From: Desulfotomaculaceae bacterium
Lineage (GTDB): Bacteria > Bacillota > Desulfotomaculia > Desulfotomaculales > Pelotomaculaceae
NCBI GenBank assembly: GCA_028696455.1
Contig: JAQVGZ010000016.1
Coordinates: forward strand, 1 to 35,038
Reading direction: 5' to 3'
Length of the DNA stretch: 35,038 bases
Position numbers and translations under genes: made by a program. Each line of letters opens with the position of its first letter. Positions within the stretch are counted from its first letter, which is position 1. The notes below the pieces were generated by a model. The model was given only the letters and a program-made list of their open reading frames with translations. It made no database searches and was not told the origin of the DNA. Shown piece after piece: positions 1-35,038 of the stretch.

Positions 1-198
1 GGTGCTTTAATTTGGCGGAACAACCCAATCTTCGCGAAATGGCTAATATAATTTCCAACCTCAGACAGGAAGCAGAAAAGTTAAAAACATTAGGCGCCGG
101 CGTTAAATGTGTTGAAATGAATGTTGTGAGAATGTCTGCGGCAATAAAAATGTTGGAGCTTGAAATTAATGAGGTTGCTGATATTCTAGATGCCTGAT
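1..198. repeat. Left copy of inverted end repeat (partner 34841-35038)
   Basis: Read inward, this stretch and the reverse complement of the last 198 bases agree except at two sites in one short segment (GTG/GTT and ATG/TTG codons of the 61-residue gene). Similarity falls abruptly just after the stop codon, then returns over the promoter, palindrome and start of the next reading frame. Both copies reach the window edge, so the true outer limit of the repeat is not visible. A contig that broke at a repeat would look like this. Confidence 0.95.
12..197 (+). CDS. Unrecognised 61-residue protein, left copy
   Basis: I do not recognise this protein. It is small, has no membrane segment, and is rich in Glu, Leu, Asn and Ala. 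The heptad-like hydrophobic spacing after residue 8 suggests a helical, possibly coiled-coil, fold. A TTG start is possible, but the frame stays open to the window edge, so the gene may begin upstream; no ribosome site can be judged. It differs from the right copy by one residue (Met here, Leu there, near residue 42), and the only other base difference is silent, which fits a translated gene. It lies upstream of, and in the same direction as, the palindrome-bearing promoter of the iclR region, as its twin does for the Mo-hydroxylase operon. Confidence 0.6.
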   Translation: MAEQPNLREMANIISNLRQEAEKLKTLGAGVKCVEMNVVRMSAAIKMLELEINEVADILDA

Positions 199-246: not shown

Positions 247-315
247 TTGACATATAATGTTTCCCAGTACATAATAATTATTACAGTAAACATTGTTTAC
301 TGTAATAATTATTAT
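247..315 (+). promoter_or_regulatory. Promoter with 45-bp palindromic operator, iclR side
   Basis: A -35 box TTGACA (247-252), a 17-bp spacer and a -10 box CATAAT (270-275) form a good sigma-A-type promoter. A perfect palindrome with 22-bp arms and a single central base spans 271-315, with core AGTAAACATTGTTTACT. It begins inside the -10 box and covers the expected transcription start, so a bound protein should block initiation. The same arrangement and spacing precede the Mo-hydroxylase operon at the other end. Which protein binds is inference; the adjacent IclR-family regulator is the nearest candidate. Confidence 0.75.
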
Positions 316-353: not shown

Positions 354-428
354 ATGTACTTACTGGATGGGGATATTTGTAAAGATGCCCGGATTGTCCT
401 GGGCGCTGTTGCCCCAGTGCCACACTAA
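354..428 (+). pseudogene. In-frame deletion remnant of the Mo-hydroxylase FAD-subunit gene
   Basis: Behind a G-rich ribosome site (341-349), a 24-codon frame starts with the first three codons of the FAD-subunit gene at 34684. It then jumps to the DGDICKDARIVLGAVAPVP segment (residues 206-224 of that protein) and ends at TAA after one more codon. Bases 364-421 are identical to the intact gene. About 200 codons are missing and the frame is kept across the junction. The remnant ends 26 bases before the iclR start codon, so it is probably translated as a leader. Whether that has a function is unknown; it may be only debris from the rearrangement that placed iclR behind this promoter. Confidence 0.85.
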
Positions 429-454: not shown

Positions 455-1225
455 GTGATCAAAGAAAGCAGCAGTTACAACGCTCCTCTTGTATATAAGA
501 TATTTTCCATTCTAGATGAGGTTGCCAAAAACCCGTCATTATTAGGTATTAGCGACCTCTCACGTATACTAAATATTTCAAAAAGCACTGTTTACGGAAT
601 AACCAAGGCGCTTATTGAAATAGGTATACTTCGCCAGAAACCGGAAACAAAAAAGTTCAGACTTGGTCCGTCACTTATTCACTTAGGTAATCAGGCGTTG
701 GGTGGAGTGGACCTGAGAACAGTTGCGAAGCCGCTAATGGAAGAAATAACCCGGCAATTTGGGGAAACTATTTTTCTTGGTATCTTCGATAAGCAAGGTA
801 TAACAATTATTGATAAGTGCAATAGTCCTATGGAATTAAAGATTTCCTCACCTGTTGGAACCAGGATTCCTTTATTGGCAGGAGCTACAGGGAAAGTCTT
901 TCTGGCAGGCCTGGAGGAAACTGTGGTTAATAAACTCTTGAAAGAAAAAACCCTTCCAAAATTTACCGAAAACTCAATAACTGATCCTGTGAAATACCAT
1001 AAGGAAATACAGAACGTACGCAGGATGGGCTATGCAACAGATTTTGAGGAGTATATCCGTGGAGTTAATGCAATTTGCACGCCCATTCCAAATTCCTGGG
1101 GGTGGCCAGCAACAGCGCTATGGATGGTGGGCTTTAGCCAGTCTTTGACCAAGGAAAAAATCAGTATGGCTACTACGGCGCTAATACAAGCTGCTATTGA
1201 AATCAGCGAAACCCTGGGGAACTAG
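455..1225 (+). CDS. IclR-family transcriptional regulator
   Basis: This is a DNA-binding regulator of 256 residues, the usual IclR-family length. The N-terminal winged helix-turn-helix covers about residues 12-75, with the recognition part around ISDLSRILNISKSTVYGI. The C-terminal effector-binding domain (about 90-250) includes the characteristic RRMGYATDFEEYIRGVNAICTP-type segment. Translation starts at GTG behind AGGA. Family members commonly control aromatic-acid or organic-acid catabolism as repressors or activators. The gene sits 26 bases after a remnant of the Mo-hydroxylase FAD gene and behind a copy of that operon's promoter and palindrome. I infer that it is autoregulated and may also control the Mo-hydroxylase operon. 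The effector cannot be read from the sequence. Confidence 0.9.
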   Translation: MIKESSSYNAPLVYKIFSILDEVAKNPSLLGISDLSRILNISKSTVYGITKALIEIGILRQKPETKKFRLGPSLIHLGNQALGGVDLRTVAKPLMEEITRQFGETIFLGIFDKQGITIIDKCNSPMELKISSPVGTRIPLLAGATGKVFLAGLEETVVNKLLKEKTLPKFTENSITDPVKYHKEIQNVRRMGYATDFEEYIRGVNAICTPIPNSWGWPATALWMVGFSQSLTKEKISMATTALIQAAIEISETLGN

Positions 1226-11354: not shown

Positions 11355-12953
11355 TTGAATAACAAAGACATTTTTTTTACACCTAAGATAATCAGTGATT
11401 ACTTTATTGAATTAACCCAAAAAGCTCACCCGTCAGGCGGGGAAGATCCGCTTCGCCAATGGGTCATCAAGAAAGTTTCTGCTATTCAAAACAAATATAC
11501 CGACAACAGGGGTAAGGTTCAAGTCAAATTTTATCACCCGGAAGCAAAAGAACCGGACGAGCGAATAATCTTCCTGCAACGAAAAGGTGCTAACCTTTAT
11601 GCAGACAAATTGCCAGTTATTCTGCAGGCCCATTTGGATATGGTAGCCGTTCCCGGTGAAAAAATTTTCCCGTTAAAATTAGATAAATATACCGAGAACA
11701 ACATCACCTGGCTGAGAGCCTTGAAGGATCTTGCCCATCCTGAAAAAGGGGGTACTACTCTTGGCGCGGATGACGGCATCGGCGTAGCTACAATTTTATC
11801 TGTCTTAGAAGAAGAGACCTTGCAAGATATGCCTTTGGAGTGCCTTTTCACCGTCCAGGAAGAAACCGACATGGCCAGTGCCAGGAATTTTGATGTAAAT
11901 TTACTTACCGGTTCAAAATTCATCAATCTTGATGCGGCGGATTTAAAAGTAATTATCTATGGCAGCGCTGGCGGCTGCGCCAGTGTATATAAAAGAAAAG
12001 TGGCCTGTAGAGAAAGTATGGAAAGCAGCCAAATCTTCCGCATTTCCGTGTCTGGGTTAAAAAGTGGTCACTCCGGGGCTGATATAAATAAAGGCAGACA
12101 AAATGCCATTAAAATTATCACGGATATATTGGTAAGATTAAATGGCAGGATAAACCGGATTGATGCGGCAGGCAGGATCAACAGTTACGATTTGCTTCTG
12201 CACACTATTAACAGAACGGACCGTGTAGTGCAAAATTCAATTCCTGCCGAAGCACAGGCAGTGGTTTCTGTTCCGGTGGCTCAGGCAGATAATTTCGTTG
12301 AGGATATTAACAAATTATTGGATTTAACAAGAGCGGCAAACATGCCTGTCGAAGATCAATTCAGTGCTTCGGTAAGGGTTGCTGACTCTAAAGAGTTGCC
12401 AATGACGGCGGCCTGCACTGATTCTGTGCTGCTCTTGCTGAAGCAATTGCCGCATGGTGTGATTAGCATGATCCCGGCCCGCCCTGGCCTTGTGGAAACA
12501 TCAACTAATCTTTTCGACGTCGTAATTTGTGATGGCGAGCTGCAAATCAGATCTTTTAACCGGAGTTCCAATATAGAAGCTCTTTCATGCTTAAATAACA
12601 TTCAAATGAATATGGCCAGGTGTTTTGGCTTTGAACCAACAATTAACATTGATCATTTTCCGCTCTGGCAGCCTGATGATTCTTCTGAGCTTTTAAAAAT
12701 TGCTAAATCAGTTTACCAAAAAATATATGGTCCCGAGGCGGAAGCAACAGTAATCCACGCCGGCCTGGAATGCGGGTGGATTATAGAAAGGTGCGGTACC
12801 AAAGTTGAGTGCATCTCCATTGGGCCCACAATTCAAGATCTTCATTCCGAAAATGAACGTCTGCAATTAGAGGATAACGGGATAAACACCATAGAATCCT
12901 ATTACCATGCCGTGCTCAAAATAATTTTAAATTCATTTACCGGCGCAAGGTAA
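11355..12953 (+). CDS. pepD: Aminoacyl-histidine dipeptidase, peptidase family M20C (PepD)
   Basis: This cytoplasmic zinc peptidase hydrolyses Xaa-His and other dipeptides. The expected di-metal ligands are visible in order: His in LQAHLDMV (~93), Asp in GADDGIG (~139), the Glu pair in TVQEETD (~169), Asp in FINLDAAD (~194) and His in DLHSENER (~496). A lid domain is inserted between (~215-390). The block ISIGPTIQDLHSENER is characteristic of PepD. At 532 residues it is somewhat longer than the usual ~485, mainly at the N-terminus. The start is TTG behind a very strong GAGGAGGGA, and no better start follows. The stop codon lies inside a 12-bp GC-rich inverted repeat. Confidence 0.9.
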   Translation: MNNKDIFFTPKIISDYFIELTQKAHPSGGEDPLRQWVIKKVSAIQNKYTDNRGKVQVKFYHPEAKEPDERIIFLQRKGANLYADKLPVILQAHLDMVAVPGEKIFPLKLDKYTENNITWLRALKDLAHPEKGGTTLGADDGIGVATILSVLEEETLQDMPLECLFTVQEETDMASARNFDVNLLTGSKFINLDAADLKVIIYGSAGGCASVYKRKVACRESMESSQIFRISVSGLKSGHSGADINKGRQNAIKIITDILVRLNGRINRIDAAGRINSYDLLLHTINRTDRVVQNSIPAEAQAVVSVPVAQADNFVEDINKLLDLTRAANMPVEDQFSASVRVADSKELPMTAACTDSVLLLLKQLPHGVISMIPARPGLVETSTNLFDVVICDGELQIRSFNRSSNIEALSCLNNIQMNMARCFGFEPTINIDHFPLWQPDDSSELLKIAKSVYQKIYGPEAEATVIHAGLECGWIIERCGTKVECISIGPTIQDLHSENERLQLEDNGINTIESYYHAVLKIILNSFTGAR

Positions 12954-12979
12954 CCAGGGGGACGGTTCCCCTGGTTACC
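12949..12979 (+). repeat. REP-like GC-rich inverted repeat at the pepD stop
   Basis: GGTAACCAGGGG pairs perfectly with CCCCTGGTTACC around GACGGTT and includes the pepD stop codon. It is followed by a run of nine C and no T-run, so it is not a classic terminator. AACCAGGGGGACGGTT occurs again, inverted, at 23569-23584, which points to a dispersed repeat family of the REP/RAYT kind. Confidence 0.7.
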
Positions 12980-30914: not shown

Positions 30915-33284
30915 TTATTCTTCTTTATTTTTTTCCTTTTCTCTCTTTTCCTTTAAAGCCCGCCAGACCTTTTCATAGCTCAATGGCAGGCTATTCACTT
31001 GCACCCCCGTGGCATCGTAAATAGCATTGTTATAACAGCCCATAGTAGGAATAGTGGCTCCTTCGCCTACTTCCTTAACGCCCCAAGGCCCTAGCGGCTC
31101 ATAACTTTCCACCAGCTCAGAAGATATTTTCGGCATGTCTAACGCCGTCGGCAAACGATACTCGCCAAGATTAGGGTTGAGGATCTTTCCTTTATCATCA
31201 AATACAACTTCTTCCCAAACCGTCTCTCCCATACCCATATAGAGAGCACCGTGGACCTGAGCGTGAAGCAGCGACGGGTTAATTACCTGGCCGCAGTCGT
31301 GGACATCCCATACTTCTTTGACATCGATTTCCCCGGTCTCCTCGTCAATCTCAACCTCACTGATTTGCGTCGCGAAGCTATAAGCCGGCGAGGTTCCTAC
31401 CGCCGCTCCTTTGAACTTTCCTCCAAGCTTAGGCGGGGAATATACTCCACGTCCCACCAGCGGGCCTTTTTGAACAAAGAACGTCCTTGCTACTTCCCCA
31501 AAAGACTTCCTGATTTCAGGGTTTGACTTGCAAAATACTACTGCTTCCCGGCAGTCCAGGTCCCCAACGTCCACTTCCATCATGACTGAGGCCATTTCTA
31601 AAATCTGCGCCTTAACCTCTTCACCAGCTTGTTTCACGGCCGCGCCGGACATAAGGGTTTGACGGCTGGAGTAAGCTCCAAAATCAAGGGGGGTAGTCTC
31701 GGTATCGGCAGCAACGATTTTCATATTTTCATAAGTAAAGCCCATTGCCTCGGCGGCCATCTGGCAAAGGATTGTGTCCGAACCCTGCCCAATATCATTA
31801 GCGCCGGTGTAAAGGGTAGCTGACGTACCGTCCTCACCTACCTTAATTATGGCCGAGGAGTGGGGCAGGTCGGTCCGGTATATAGGATAGCCGGCGCCGC
31901 TGACGAAACTGCCTACAGCCACCCCAATCCCTCTACCCTTGGGAAGTTTACCTTTCTTTTCATTCCAGCCAGAAATCTCCCGGGCTTTCTCAATGCAGGC
32001 GGTTAACTCACACGACTGAACGCCGAAATCGTTAGGGGTAACTGTATTGGGTTTGCGGGCGTTCCGCAGCCTCAGTTCCACCGGATCGATTCCCAGGTGC
32101 TCGGCAATACGATCCAGGTGGCTCTCAAAAGCATACCGAGGCTGGGGAGCTCCATGGCCTCGTTGAGCGCCGCAGGCCGGCAGGTTAGTATAAACTCGCA
32201 ACATGTCGAATTTAAAGTTTTCAAAATCATAAGTCAGGGGAAGCATAGCCCCGGCATAGTAAGCGGTGGCAATGCCAAGGCTTGTGTAAGCCCCGCCGTC
32301 CTGAATAAAGTTGGCGTGCACCCCCAGGATCTTGCCGTTTTTATCCACGCCGGTGGTGATCTCCATATGCACTCTATGGCGGCCGCGGTTATGGGCAAAC
32401 ATATCGGCCCGGTCGTAGAACATCCTGACCGGGCGGCCGGTCATCTTAGCTATAACAGCCCCGGCAAACTCCAGACCGGTAGGCTCAAGCTTGCCCCCGA
32501 AGCCTCCTCCGATAAAGGTCTTGAGCACCCGCACATCACCCATTTTCATACCGAACTCCCGGGCGATGTAATACTGAAAGTAGTGCGGTGACTGGGTGCT
32601 GCAATAAACAGTCAGCTTGCCATTTTCCCAGATCGATATGGCCGAATGGGGCTCCATGGGAGCCTGATAGGCTCGATTTCCCACAAAACGGTCAGTGCGC
32701 ACGTAATAAGCTTCCGCAAACGCTTTTTCCACATCGCCAAAGTTTTGGTGAATTTCAGCGTTCAGATTGCGGGGGTACTCGTCGTGCACTAGAGGCGCAC
32801 CCTCTTTCATGGCCTCATACACATCAAATACTGCCGGTAAAACTTCATATTCAACCTTAATCAGCTTTAATGCCTTATAAACGGTATCTTCGTCGACAGC
32901 GGCCACGGCTGCGACCTTATCCCCCACAAAGCGGACTTTATCAATACAGAAAATGTTTTCATCCCAGCGGGCCGGGCTGATCCCGTACTTCAGGCTGGGT
33001 ACGTCCTTATGTGTTATTACCGCCTTAACTCCCGGAAGTTTTTCCGCTTCCGAAGTGTCTATACTCAAAATTCTGGCGTGAGCATGCGGGCTGGTAAGGA
33101 TTTTCCCCACCAGCATATTGGGAAATTTTAGGTCTCCGGTGTATTTTGCCTGGCCGGTAACTTTAACCCGCCCGTCAATCTTGGGCACACTCTTTCCTAT
33201 AACTGAATATTTCTCTTCACTTAGTTTAACCCCACTTATATCCTCTGGTTTGTAATTTGTATAAGAACTTCTTTTCTTTTCCAT
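30915..33284 (-). CDS. Molybdenum hydroxylase large subunit (xanthine oxidase/4-hydroxybenzoyl-CoA reductase family)
   Basis: This 789-residue catalytic subunit binds the molybdenum-cytosine-dinucleotide cofactor. The N-terminal domain GRVKVTGQAKYTGD (~40) is followed by Mo-binding segments including IGGGFGGKLEP (~257), CGAQRGHGAPQPRYAFE (~372-388), TGANDIGQGSDT (~500) and the C-terminal catalytic Glu block KEVGEGATIPTM (~738). The AYxCSFR loop of true aerobic CO dehydrogenase is absent. The QRGHG-x-PQPR segment resembles 4-hydroxybenzoyl-CoA reductase alpha subunits, so an aromatic or N-heterocyclic substrate is likely. A strong AGGAGG precedes ATG. It is the last gene of a FAD, FeS, Mo operon with 15-20-base gaps. 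The exact substrate is not decided. Confidence 0.9.
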   Translation of the reverse strand: MEKKRSSYTNYKPEDISGVKLSEEKYSVIGKSVPKIDGRVKVTGQAKYTGDLKFPNMLVGKILTSPHAHARILSIDTSEAEKLPGVKAVITHKDVPSLKYGISPARWDENIFCIDKVRFVGDKVAAVAAVDEDTVYKALKLIKVEYEVLPAVFDVYEAMKEGAPLVHDEYPRNLNAEIHQNFGDVEKAFAEAYYVRTDRFVGNRAYQAPMEPHSAISIWENGKLTVYCSTQSPHYFQYYIAREFGMKMGDVRVLKTFIGGGFGGKLEPTGLEFAGAVIAKMTGRPVRMFYDRADMFAHNRGRHRVHMEITTGVDKNGKILGVHANFIQDGGAYTSLGIATAYYAGAMLPLTYDFENFKFDMLRVYTNLPACGAQRGHGAPQPRYAFESHLDRIAEHLGIDPVELRLRNARKPNTVTPNDFGVQSCELTACIEKAREISGWNEKKGKLPKGRGIGVAVGSFVSGAGYPIYRTDLPHSSAIIKVGEDGTSATLYTGANDIGQGSDTILCQMAAEAMGFTYENMKIVAADTETTPLDFGAYSSRQTLMSGAAVKQAGEEVKAQILEMASVMMEVDVGDLDCREAVVFCKSNPEIRKSFGEVARTFFVQKGPLVGRGVYSPPKLGGKFKGAAVGTSPAYSFATQISEVEIDEETGEIDVKEVWDVHDCGQVINPSLLHAQVHGALYMGMGETVWEEVVFDDKGKILNPNLGEYRLPTALDMPKISSELVESYEPLGPWGVKEVGEGATIPTMGCYNNAIYDATGVQVNSLPLSYEKVWRALKEKREKEKNKEE

Positions 33285-33299
33285 ATGCTTGCACCTCCT

Positions 33300-33794
33300 C
33301 TACTGTTCGTCAGCCGCAGCCAGGACGGCCTTAACAATATTAACATAGCCTGTGCAGCGGCACAGGTTGCCGGCAATTGCTTCACGCACTTCCTGTTCGC
33401 TGGGATGAGGATTGCGGTTAAGGAGAGCCTTGGCAGACATTATCATGCCGGGCGTACAGTAACCACACTGTACTGCAGCATTGTTTACAAAGGATTCCTG
33501 CAGCTTATCCAGTTTTTCATGCTGCGCCAGTCCCTCAATCGTGGTAATATGGCGCCCGTCTGCCTCTACCGCCAGAACCAGGCAGGAGTCCACCGGTTTG
33601 TCGTCCAACAGGACGGTGCAGGACCCGCAGTCGCCCAGCTCGCAACCTTTTTTAGTCCCGGTCAAATCCAGTTCTTCACGCAGGAAATTGGCCAGGGTGG
33701 TATTAGCTTTAACAACCCTGCTATAACTGTCCCCGTTGACGTTTAAAGTAATCAGATAGCGCTTAACACCGTTATTGTCTGTAATCGCCTGCAT
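33300..33794 (-). CDS. Molybdenum hydroxylase 2Fe-2S subunit
   Basis: This 164-residue electron-transfer subunit carries two [2Fe-2S] clusters. The plant-ferredoxin-like domain has GCELGDCGSC followed by DSC (~50-75). The helical domain has QCGYCTPGM and NLCRCTGY (~115-155), so all eight cluster cysteines are present. It passes electrons between the Mo centre and the FAD subunit. The ATG lies ten bases after a G-rich ribosome site. The gene stands between the FAD and Mo subunit genes, the common order for CoxMSL/Hcr-type operons. Confidence 0.95.
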   Translation of the reverse strand: MQAITDNNGVKRYLITLNVNGDSYSRVVKANTTLANFLREELDLTGTKKGCELGDCGSCTVLLDDKPVDSCLVLAVEADGRHITTIEGLAQHEKLDKLQESFVNNAAVQCGYCTPGMIMSAKALLNRNPHPSEQEVREAIAGNLCRCTGYVNIVKAVLAAADEQ

Positions 33795-33814: not shown

Positions 33815-34684
33815 TTAGCAGTGTCCTTCTTGAATTGCTTTCTTCAGGGCACGCTTGGTAAAAACCCGCACCATATCCCGCCGGTACTCAGCCGAGCCAC
33901 GTATATCAGATATAGGCTTACTTTCTCCGGCAGCGCACACACCGACCTCTTCCAGGAGCCCGTCTGTAACAGATTTACCTTTAAGCAATTCTTCTGCTTT
34001 TTTAGCACGTATGGGCACTGGGGCAACAGCGCCCAGGACAATCCGGGCATCTTTACAAATATCCCCATCCATAACTACCGCGGCAGCCACCCCGACTACA
34101 GCCAGGGCGCCGGAGCGGCGCAGCCCGAATTTCATGTAGGTACTGCCGGTGAAGGGCTGGTCGGGAAGGATAATTTCGGTTAAAATCTCGTCTTGTTTGA
34201 TCACAGTCTTACCCGGGCCGCTAAAAAATTCTTCCAGGGGCACTGTCCTCTCTCCCCCGGTTCCAACTAGCTTAACTATAGCGCCAAGGGCAATCAGGAT
34301 CGGAGGCAGGTCGGCGGAAGGCACCGCGTTAATAATATTGCCGCCCACGGTTCCCCTATTCCTGACCTGGTTATTGGCCATGTGGTGCGCGGCCTCACAA
34401 ATGGAAAGGTATTTTTCCTGCAGGACAGGTGAATTAGCCAGGTCATTATGAGTGGCACGGGAGCCGATAATTATCCCTTTTTCCTGTTCGTAAAAAATAT
34501 TAGTGAGCTGGCTGAGGTTTTTAAGTGATACCAGGGCCTCGGGGGCCATAAGCTCCTGTTTCATTTTTGGTAGGGCGTCAGTGCCGCCTGCGATTACTTT
34601 TGCCCTGGCGCCAAATTGTGCCAGAAGCCCGCATGCTTCCGGCAAACTGGATGGGGCGTAATACTCAAAATCCGGTAAGTACAT
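33815..34684 (-). CDS. Molybdenum hydroxylase FAD-binding subunit
   Basis: This 289-residue flavin subunit of the CoxM/HcrB type has FAD-binding motifs AKVIAGGTDALPKM (~28-41) and NRGTVGGNIINAVPSADLPP (~109-128). A C-terminal CO-dehydrogenase-flavoprotein domain contains YMKFGLRRSGALAVVGVAA (~183-201). It lacks the ~40-residue Cys-bearing insertion that holds the extra [4Fe-4S] cluster in Thauera HcrB. I chose ATG 34684, six bases after AGGAGG; an in-frame GTG at 34711 has no such site, and the left-end remnant begins at the equivalent ATG. It is the first gene of the operon, directly behind the palindrome-bearing promoter. Confidence 0.93.
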   Translation of the reverse strand: MYLPDFEYYAPSSLPEACGLLAQFGARAKVIAGGTDALPKMKQELMAPEALVSLKNLSQLTNIFYEQEKGIIIGSRATHNDLANSPVLQEKYLSICEAAHHMANNQVRNRGTVGGNIINAVPSADLPPILIALGAIVKLVGTGGERTVPLEEFFSGPGKTVIKQDEILTEIILPDQPFTGSTYMKFGLRRSGALAVVGVAAAVVMDGDICKDARIVLGAVAPVPIRAKKAEELLKGKSVTDGLLEEVGVCAAGESKPISDIRGSAEYRRDMVRVFTKRALKKAIQEGHC

Positions 34685-34721: not shown

Positions 34722-34790
34722 ATAATAATTATTATAGTAAACGATGTTCACTATAATAATTATTATGTACTGAAAAGCATCATATGTCAA
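34722..34790 (-). promoter_or_regulatory. Promoter with palindromic operator, Mo-hydroxylase side
   Basis: On the minus strand TTGACA (34790-34785), a 17-bp spacer and CATAAT (34767-34762) mirror the iclR-side promoter. The 45-bp palindrome (34722-34766) has 22-bp arms with two mismatches and again starts within the -10 box. The AT arms are almost unchanged from the other copy, although much of the neighbouring non-coding sequence differs, which implies selection on this site. Confidence 0.75.
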
Positions 34791-34840: not shown

Positions 34841-35038
34841 ATCAGGCATCTAGAATATCAGCAACCTCATTAATTTCAAGCTCCAACATTTTTATTGCCG
34901 CAGACAATCTAACAACATTCATTTCAACACATTTAACGCCGGCGCCTAATGTTTTTAACTTTTCTGCTTCCTGTCTGAGGTTGGAAATTATATTAGCCAT
35001 TTCGCGAAGATTGGGTTGTTCCGCCAAATTAAAGCACC
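34841..35038. repeat. Right copy of inverted end repeat (partner 1-198)
   Basis: This is the reverse complement of the first 198 bases with two substitutions. It ends exactly at the window edge, so its outer boundary is unknown. Confidence 0.95.
34842..35027 (-). CDS. Unrecognised 61-residue protein, right copy
   Basis: This is the near-identical twin of the gene at the left end (Leu instead of Met near residue 42). It lies directly upstream of, and in the same direction as, the Mo-hydroxylase promoter. As on the left, the frame stays open to the window edge, so the true start may lie outside. No motif, membrane segment or Cys/His cluster suggests a function; a small helical protein is likely. 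Confidence 0.6.
   Translation of the reverse strand: MAEQPNLREMANIISNLRQEAEKLKTLGAGVKCVEMNVVRLSAAIKMLELEINEVADILDA

Follow-up and report, generated by a model that had tools for sequence, protein, structure and literature searches.

Organization of the locus

The window is an entire contig of 35,038 nucleotides (G000:C67:1-35038) and carries a promoter overlapped by a large palindrome near each of its ends. At the left end, a promoter on the forward strand (247-275; TTGACA, 17 bp, CATAAT) leads into a 45-bp perfect palindrome (271-315, forward strand; ATAATAATTATTAC-AGTAAACATTGTTTACT-GTAATAATTATTAT), in which all 22 of 22 pairs form around a single central T (22+1+22). The core, AGTAAACATTGTTTACT, occupies positions 285-301, and the outer arms are AT-rich and contain TAATAATTATTA. 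The second copy lies on the reverse strand (34722-34766; core AGTGAACATCGTTTACT) with its promoter at 34762-34790 on the same strand. The -35 hexamer TTGACA, the 17-bp spacer length and the -10 hexamer CATAAT are common to both copies, and the first bases of each palindrome fall within the -10 box. The first-pass annotation had described such a palindrome overlapping the -10 box at both promoters, with equal hexamer spacing and equal placement, and this description holds, with 22/22 pairs on the left and 20/22 on the right. The mismatches of the right copy are both in the core (G.T and A.C), and relative to the left copy one C-G pair is swapped for T-A.

A chance origin of the palindrome is rejected. 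The hairpin energy of 271-315 has z = -9.6 against dinucleotide shuffles, and among 20,000 first-order Markov sequences of local composition (25% GC) the longest perfect arm is 14. A genome-wide scan finds no further core in the genome above a reversed-pattern control; the genome thus has just two copies, which rules out a dispersed repeat. The leave-one-out matrix scoring described below also speaks against chance. Elsewhere in the window, a strong hairpin, GGTAACCAGGGGGACGGTTCCCCTGGTTACC, at 12949-12979 overlaps the end of an ORF and is possibly a terminator or a repeat.

The left promoter precedes a short ORF (discussed below) and a gene for an IclR-family regulator (455-1225, forward strand), an intact frame of 256 aa with an N-terminal HTH_IclR domain (Pfam, 8e-9) and a C-terminal IclR_C domain (9e-38). 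Its best NCBIfam model is KdgR (NF011671), with 145 bits, below the cut-off of 275. The right promoter precedes a reverse-strand operon for a molybdenum hydroxylase, composed of a FAD subunit (33815-34684; 289 aa, start MYLPDF), a 2Fe-2S subunit (33300-33794) and a molybdopterin (Mo) subunit of the 4-hydroxybenzoyl-CoA reductase (4-HBCR) alpha type (30915-33284). The Mo subunit passes TIGR03194 (1138 bits, cut-off 994.55), and the nearest solved structure is 1rm6_A. The FAD subunit does not reach the cut-off of the beta model TIGR03195 (122 versus 404.55 bits), its nearest solved structures being CO dehydrogenase flavoproteins. With the alpha model passed and the beta model failed, the enzyme is best described as 4-HBCR-like only. 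Its substrates are probably 4-hydroxybenzoyl-CoA-type aromatics, and the failure of the beta model may reflect a difference in electron flow or substrate. A further FAD-FeS-Mo operon is present in the genome at G000:C143:41507-42373 (L107:7508-8374), without the operator. Its FAD gene and that of the window differ in about 20% of positions at the 5' end but are near-identical at the 3' end, a pattern that suggests gene conversion.

A duplicated block at the contig ends

Both palindromes are embedded in a block of about 368 bp that is present at the two contig ends in inverted orientation and is 88% identical overall. Identity is 100% over positions 1-127, 95% over 128-203, 38% over 204-245, 84% over 246-270, 91% over 271-315 and 78% over 316-368. 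The earlier statement that the surrounding DNA largely differs is therefore correct for 204-245 only, the rest of the block being 78-100% identical. This comparison identifies the two palindrome copies as paralogues that arose with the duplication of one block, and so their mutual similarity alone is no proof of selection and only weak evidence for function. The outermost segments (1-127 and 34912-35038) are exactly identical over 127 bp in inverted orientation, which we infer to be an assembler k-mer overlap at a collapsed repeat, judging from its appearance.

The outer part of the block encodes the end of a small conserved ORF, here called gene X, that lies upstream of the hydroxylase operon. 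The left copy (3-197, forward strand) is a 3' part of 64 codons plus stop, truncated by the contig end, and the right copy (34842-35036, reverse strand) is likewise a 3' part, whose protein is 98.4% identical to the left; the C-terminal 64 aa are visible. No Pfam family matched gene X. It also precedes the FAD gene in L101/L086 (76%), L104/L087 (69%) and, more distantly, L098 (38%), and is kept in Pelotomaculum relatives. The genome bin contains no further copy of gene X, so the piece connecting the contig ends is missing.

Between the left palindrome and iclR lies a 24-codon ORF (354-428, forward strand; MYLLDGDICKDARIVLGAVAPVPH, followed by a stop) that begins at ATG 354 and is the scar of a FAD-subunit gene, with the start joined to codons about 206-223. 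The intact FAD subunit on the right begins with MYLPDF, and around residues 206-223 it reads DGDICKDARIVLGAVAPVP; the DGDICKDARIVLGAVAPVP stretch of the scar is identical at 58/58 nt to both intact FAD copies of the genome. In tblastn the ORF matches FAD residues 204-224 (E 1.7e-6), and microhomology can be seen at the junction (GTACTTACCGGAT versus GTAGTTATGGATG). The fusion of the FAD start to codons about 206-223 and the 58/58 identity mark the left copy as the remnant of a deleted hydroxylase operon. As read from these sequences, this operon underwent an internal FAD deletion and lost its remaining enzyme genes, leaving the promoter, the operator and iclR. The left copy is thus not an independently evolved iclR promoter.

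The proposed operator and the regulator in related genomes

Whole-genome searches of relatives recover IclR orthologs with 50-69% identity to the 455-1225 protein. The ortholog immediately follows the Mo subunit in L092/L124, L094, L095, L096 and L118; otherwise it is divergent in L090, behind yqeB-xdhC-modABC in L101 and between two operons in L119. The promoter architecture of the left copy is also present in L101, L091 and L093, and in L090 with a different -10 box; low-scoring DNA matches to the promoter occur in the relatives G002, G031, G035, G041 and G057. Directly downstream of the operon -10 box, relatives share a conserved core of 20-22 bp, ATAGWRAACA-N1-2-YGTTYACTAT, which extends to orthologous promoters in other families. 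Conservation before homologous operons, which the first-pass annotation had named as its own test, is accordingly seen for this core and not for the perfect 45-bp form. In the fetched loci of relatives, the form with AT-rich arms has no counterpart before the hydroxylase operon. The arms that extend the core to 45 bp are seen in this genome only, and one of them includes part of the -10 box; they may give a second dimer additional contacts or may be a by-product of AT-rich promoter sequence. Other strong palindromes near hydroxylase genes (L104 5800-5827, L112 3057-3100 and L113 10363-10397) are found immediately after the operon and resemble terminators.

A position weight matrix was trained on sites picked by eye from the same promoters, with L118 outside the set, and was scored leave-one-out with close relatives also omitted, over 11,500-70,000 positions per locus. 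The site ranks first in its locus for the right window copy (winR), L101, L118, L119, L093, L094, L095 and L096, second in L090 and third for the left window copy (winL); the L118 site was recovered blind. Ten sites score at least 15.7, compared with at most 8.1 in the FAD promoters that were counted as lacking a site. The value of 8.1 is reached by a weak remnant, all that is found in the same-genus genome L105, which has no IclR ortholog.

The site accompanies the regulator. It is present in 9 of 13 genomes with an IclR ortholog and in 0 of 20 without one (Fisher p = 2e-5, a value to be read with the relatedness of the genomes in mind, by which independence is overstated). When linkage is considered, the site occurs in 8 of the 9 genomes whose iclR is linked, compared with 0 of 23 otherwise (p = 9e-7, where relatedness again overstates independence); L093 is omitted from this count, its contig being too short to reveal linkage. 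One exception is L092, with a linked iclR and a half-site only. In L089, L097 and L099 the IclR homolog is unlinked and no site was found. In L120 the site sits on the promoter of iclR itself, and in L090 one strong site lies within the 178 bp that separate the divergent iclR and FAD genes.

Two loci contain additional features. In L101, a second operator-promoter copy (L101:1555-1605, reverse strand) precedes a gene for a molybdopterin-binding (MoCF_biosynth) domain, which is divergent from an aryl-CoA-ligase-like gene. In L119, a truncated IclR remnant (L119:9177-9509, residues 141-251) is found behind one Mo subunit, in addition to an intact IclR gene. The matrix gives no good site for the second L119 operon. 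L119, with two hydroxylase operons and an IclR remnant, is a parallel example of duplication with decay.

Proposed mechanism and alternative explanations

We propose that the palindrome is the operator of the IclR protein 455-1225, a dimer of which would repress its own promoter and that of the hydroxylase operon until an aromatic or aromatic-CoA ligand is present, and that the operon was duplicated and then split; to this reading we give a probability of about 0.8. The IclR dimer, or a dimer of dimers, would sit on the core immediately after the -10 box, covering the transcription start, and so block RNA polymerase at its own promoter and at that of the FAD/2Fe-2S/Mo operon. An aromatic acid, or the CoA ester of one, would release the protein. 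The binding, the repression and the nature of the ligand are all predictions here. Repression seems likelier than activation from the position of the site and the family of the regulator. The first-pass annotation had suggested a shared operator through which one regulator controls both promoters. The conserved operator stands, with the IclR protein (455-1225) as the likeliest regulator to read it on the sequence evidence; the two copies belong to one duplicated block.

In the ancestral state, the regulator would have been located beside or inside the hydroxylase operon. After duplication of the operon, one copy would have lost the enzyme genes and kept the operator and iclR, and the other would have kept the operator and the enzyme genes, without iclR; the order of these events is our reconstruction. 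A more ambitious version of this history, somewhat short of even odds, is that a self-regulated aromatic-CoA hydroxylase operon was split by duplication and complementary loss into a two-promoter regulon, with an operator going with both halves and a 24-codon scar remaining, and that the operator lengthened into the 45-bp perfect palindrome, which may hold extra regulator dimers.

The two palindromes could be alike only through recent block duplication, with the left copy a non-functional relic and iclR expressed otherwise or not at all. The 88% identity of the block, the 58/58 match of the scar to the intact FAD copies and the clear deletion scar in the stretch before iclR would all fit such a relic. 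We nevertheless consider it unlikely, because the hexamers of the left promoter are undamaged, the palindrome there is better paired than on the right (22 versus 20 pairs), iclR retains an uninterrupted frame of 256 aa, and in relatives this operator stands before iclR itself or before an operon that includes iclR. That the element serves a regulator other than the IclR protein is improbable given how the occurrence of the motif follows that of the IclR ortholog and of its linkage, its position on iclR's own promoter in L120 and its published IclR group-2 form, although the IclR assignment is itself drawn from sequence, and the copy before the molybdopterin-binding-domain gene in L101 makes a molybdenum-responsive factor conceivable.

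A role in RNA would require transcription to begin within the palindrome, so that a stem-loop at the 5' terminus of the mRNA stabilises or attenuates it. With CATAAT as the -10 box, transcription would start near 282, which would allow a 5' hairpin to form from the core, and the right copy preserves one pair via a double change. However, the full 45-bp hairpin is not transcribable from the CATAAT promoter, and in L093-L096 the halves are poorly complementary, yet the IclR consensus persists, which makes this role very improbable. Scarcely credible is the end of a mobile element or another repeat without a regulatory role: inverted copies do occur at both contig ends, but there are no others in the genome, the repeated block takes in host coding sequence, and orthologous promoters of other families retain the core. 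Operator function with IclR as the reader remains our preferred reading. It provides a testable regulator-operator pair for a 4-HBCR-type hydroxylase operon in Desulfotomaculaceae and related anaerobes, and it clearly illustrates the change of an autoregulated operon into a dispersed regulon.

Comparison with known systems

The hydroxylase operon resembles the Thauera-type 4-hydroxybenzoyl-CoA reductase operon (1rm6) in its Mo subunit, which passes TIGR03194, and in the aryl-CoA-ligase-like gene near the operon in the relative L101. It differs in the FAD subunit, which has 289 aa, fails TIGR03195 and is closest to CO dehydrogenase flavoproteins. The Thauera beta subunit has an extra 4Fe-4S cluster. 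The literature found on 4-HBCR with IclR describes no such regulator-enzyme pair, and searches on Pelotomaculum terephthalicicum with IclR and on 4-HBCR with operator returned nothing; no described regulator for such an operon was found in the literature searched. The kind of switch is already known, and as far as this search shows it is new for this enzyme.

The core, which the first-pass annotation did not recognise, fits the group-2 consensus of the IclR family, TGRAACAN1-2TGTTYCA (Suvorova and Gelfand 2021, PMC8222616), and is arranged like a KdgR box. The KdgR box, from an IclR-family system of pectin catabolism, is RWWGAAACGNCGTTTCAKKA (Table 1 of PMC8222616) and has the same arrangement around its centre as the window core. 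The regulator here, however, is far below the KdgR cut-off (145 versus 275 bits), and its target is a Mo-hydroxylase, not pectin genes. Group-2 operators consist of inverted RAACA/TGTTY half-sites with a 1-2-bp centre, an arrangement found in the window core GTAAACA-T-TGTTTAC, which agrees with the consensus at the five inner positions of both half-sites. The centre is N1 in both window copies, L119, L118, L093, L095 and L096 and N2 in L101, L090 and L094, with some half-site variation. The outer TG/CA of the consensus is replaced by GT/AC in the window and by GA or GT in relatives; the published consensus spans many groups, and we take this mismatch as variation and call the site group-2-like. 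Group-2 operators also lie at promoters near the IclR gene, as does the strong site in 8 of the 9 genomes with a linked iclR. The 45-bp length, which comes from the AT-rich arms, sets the window site apart from group-2 operators.
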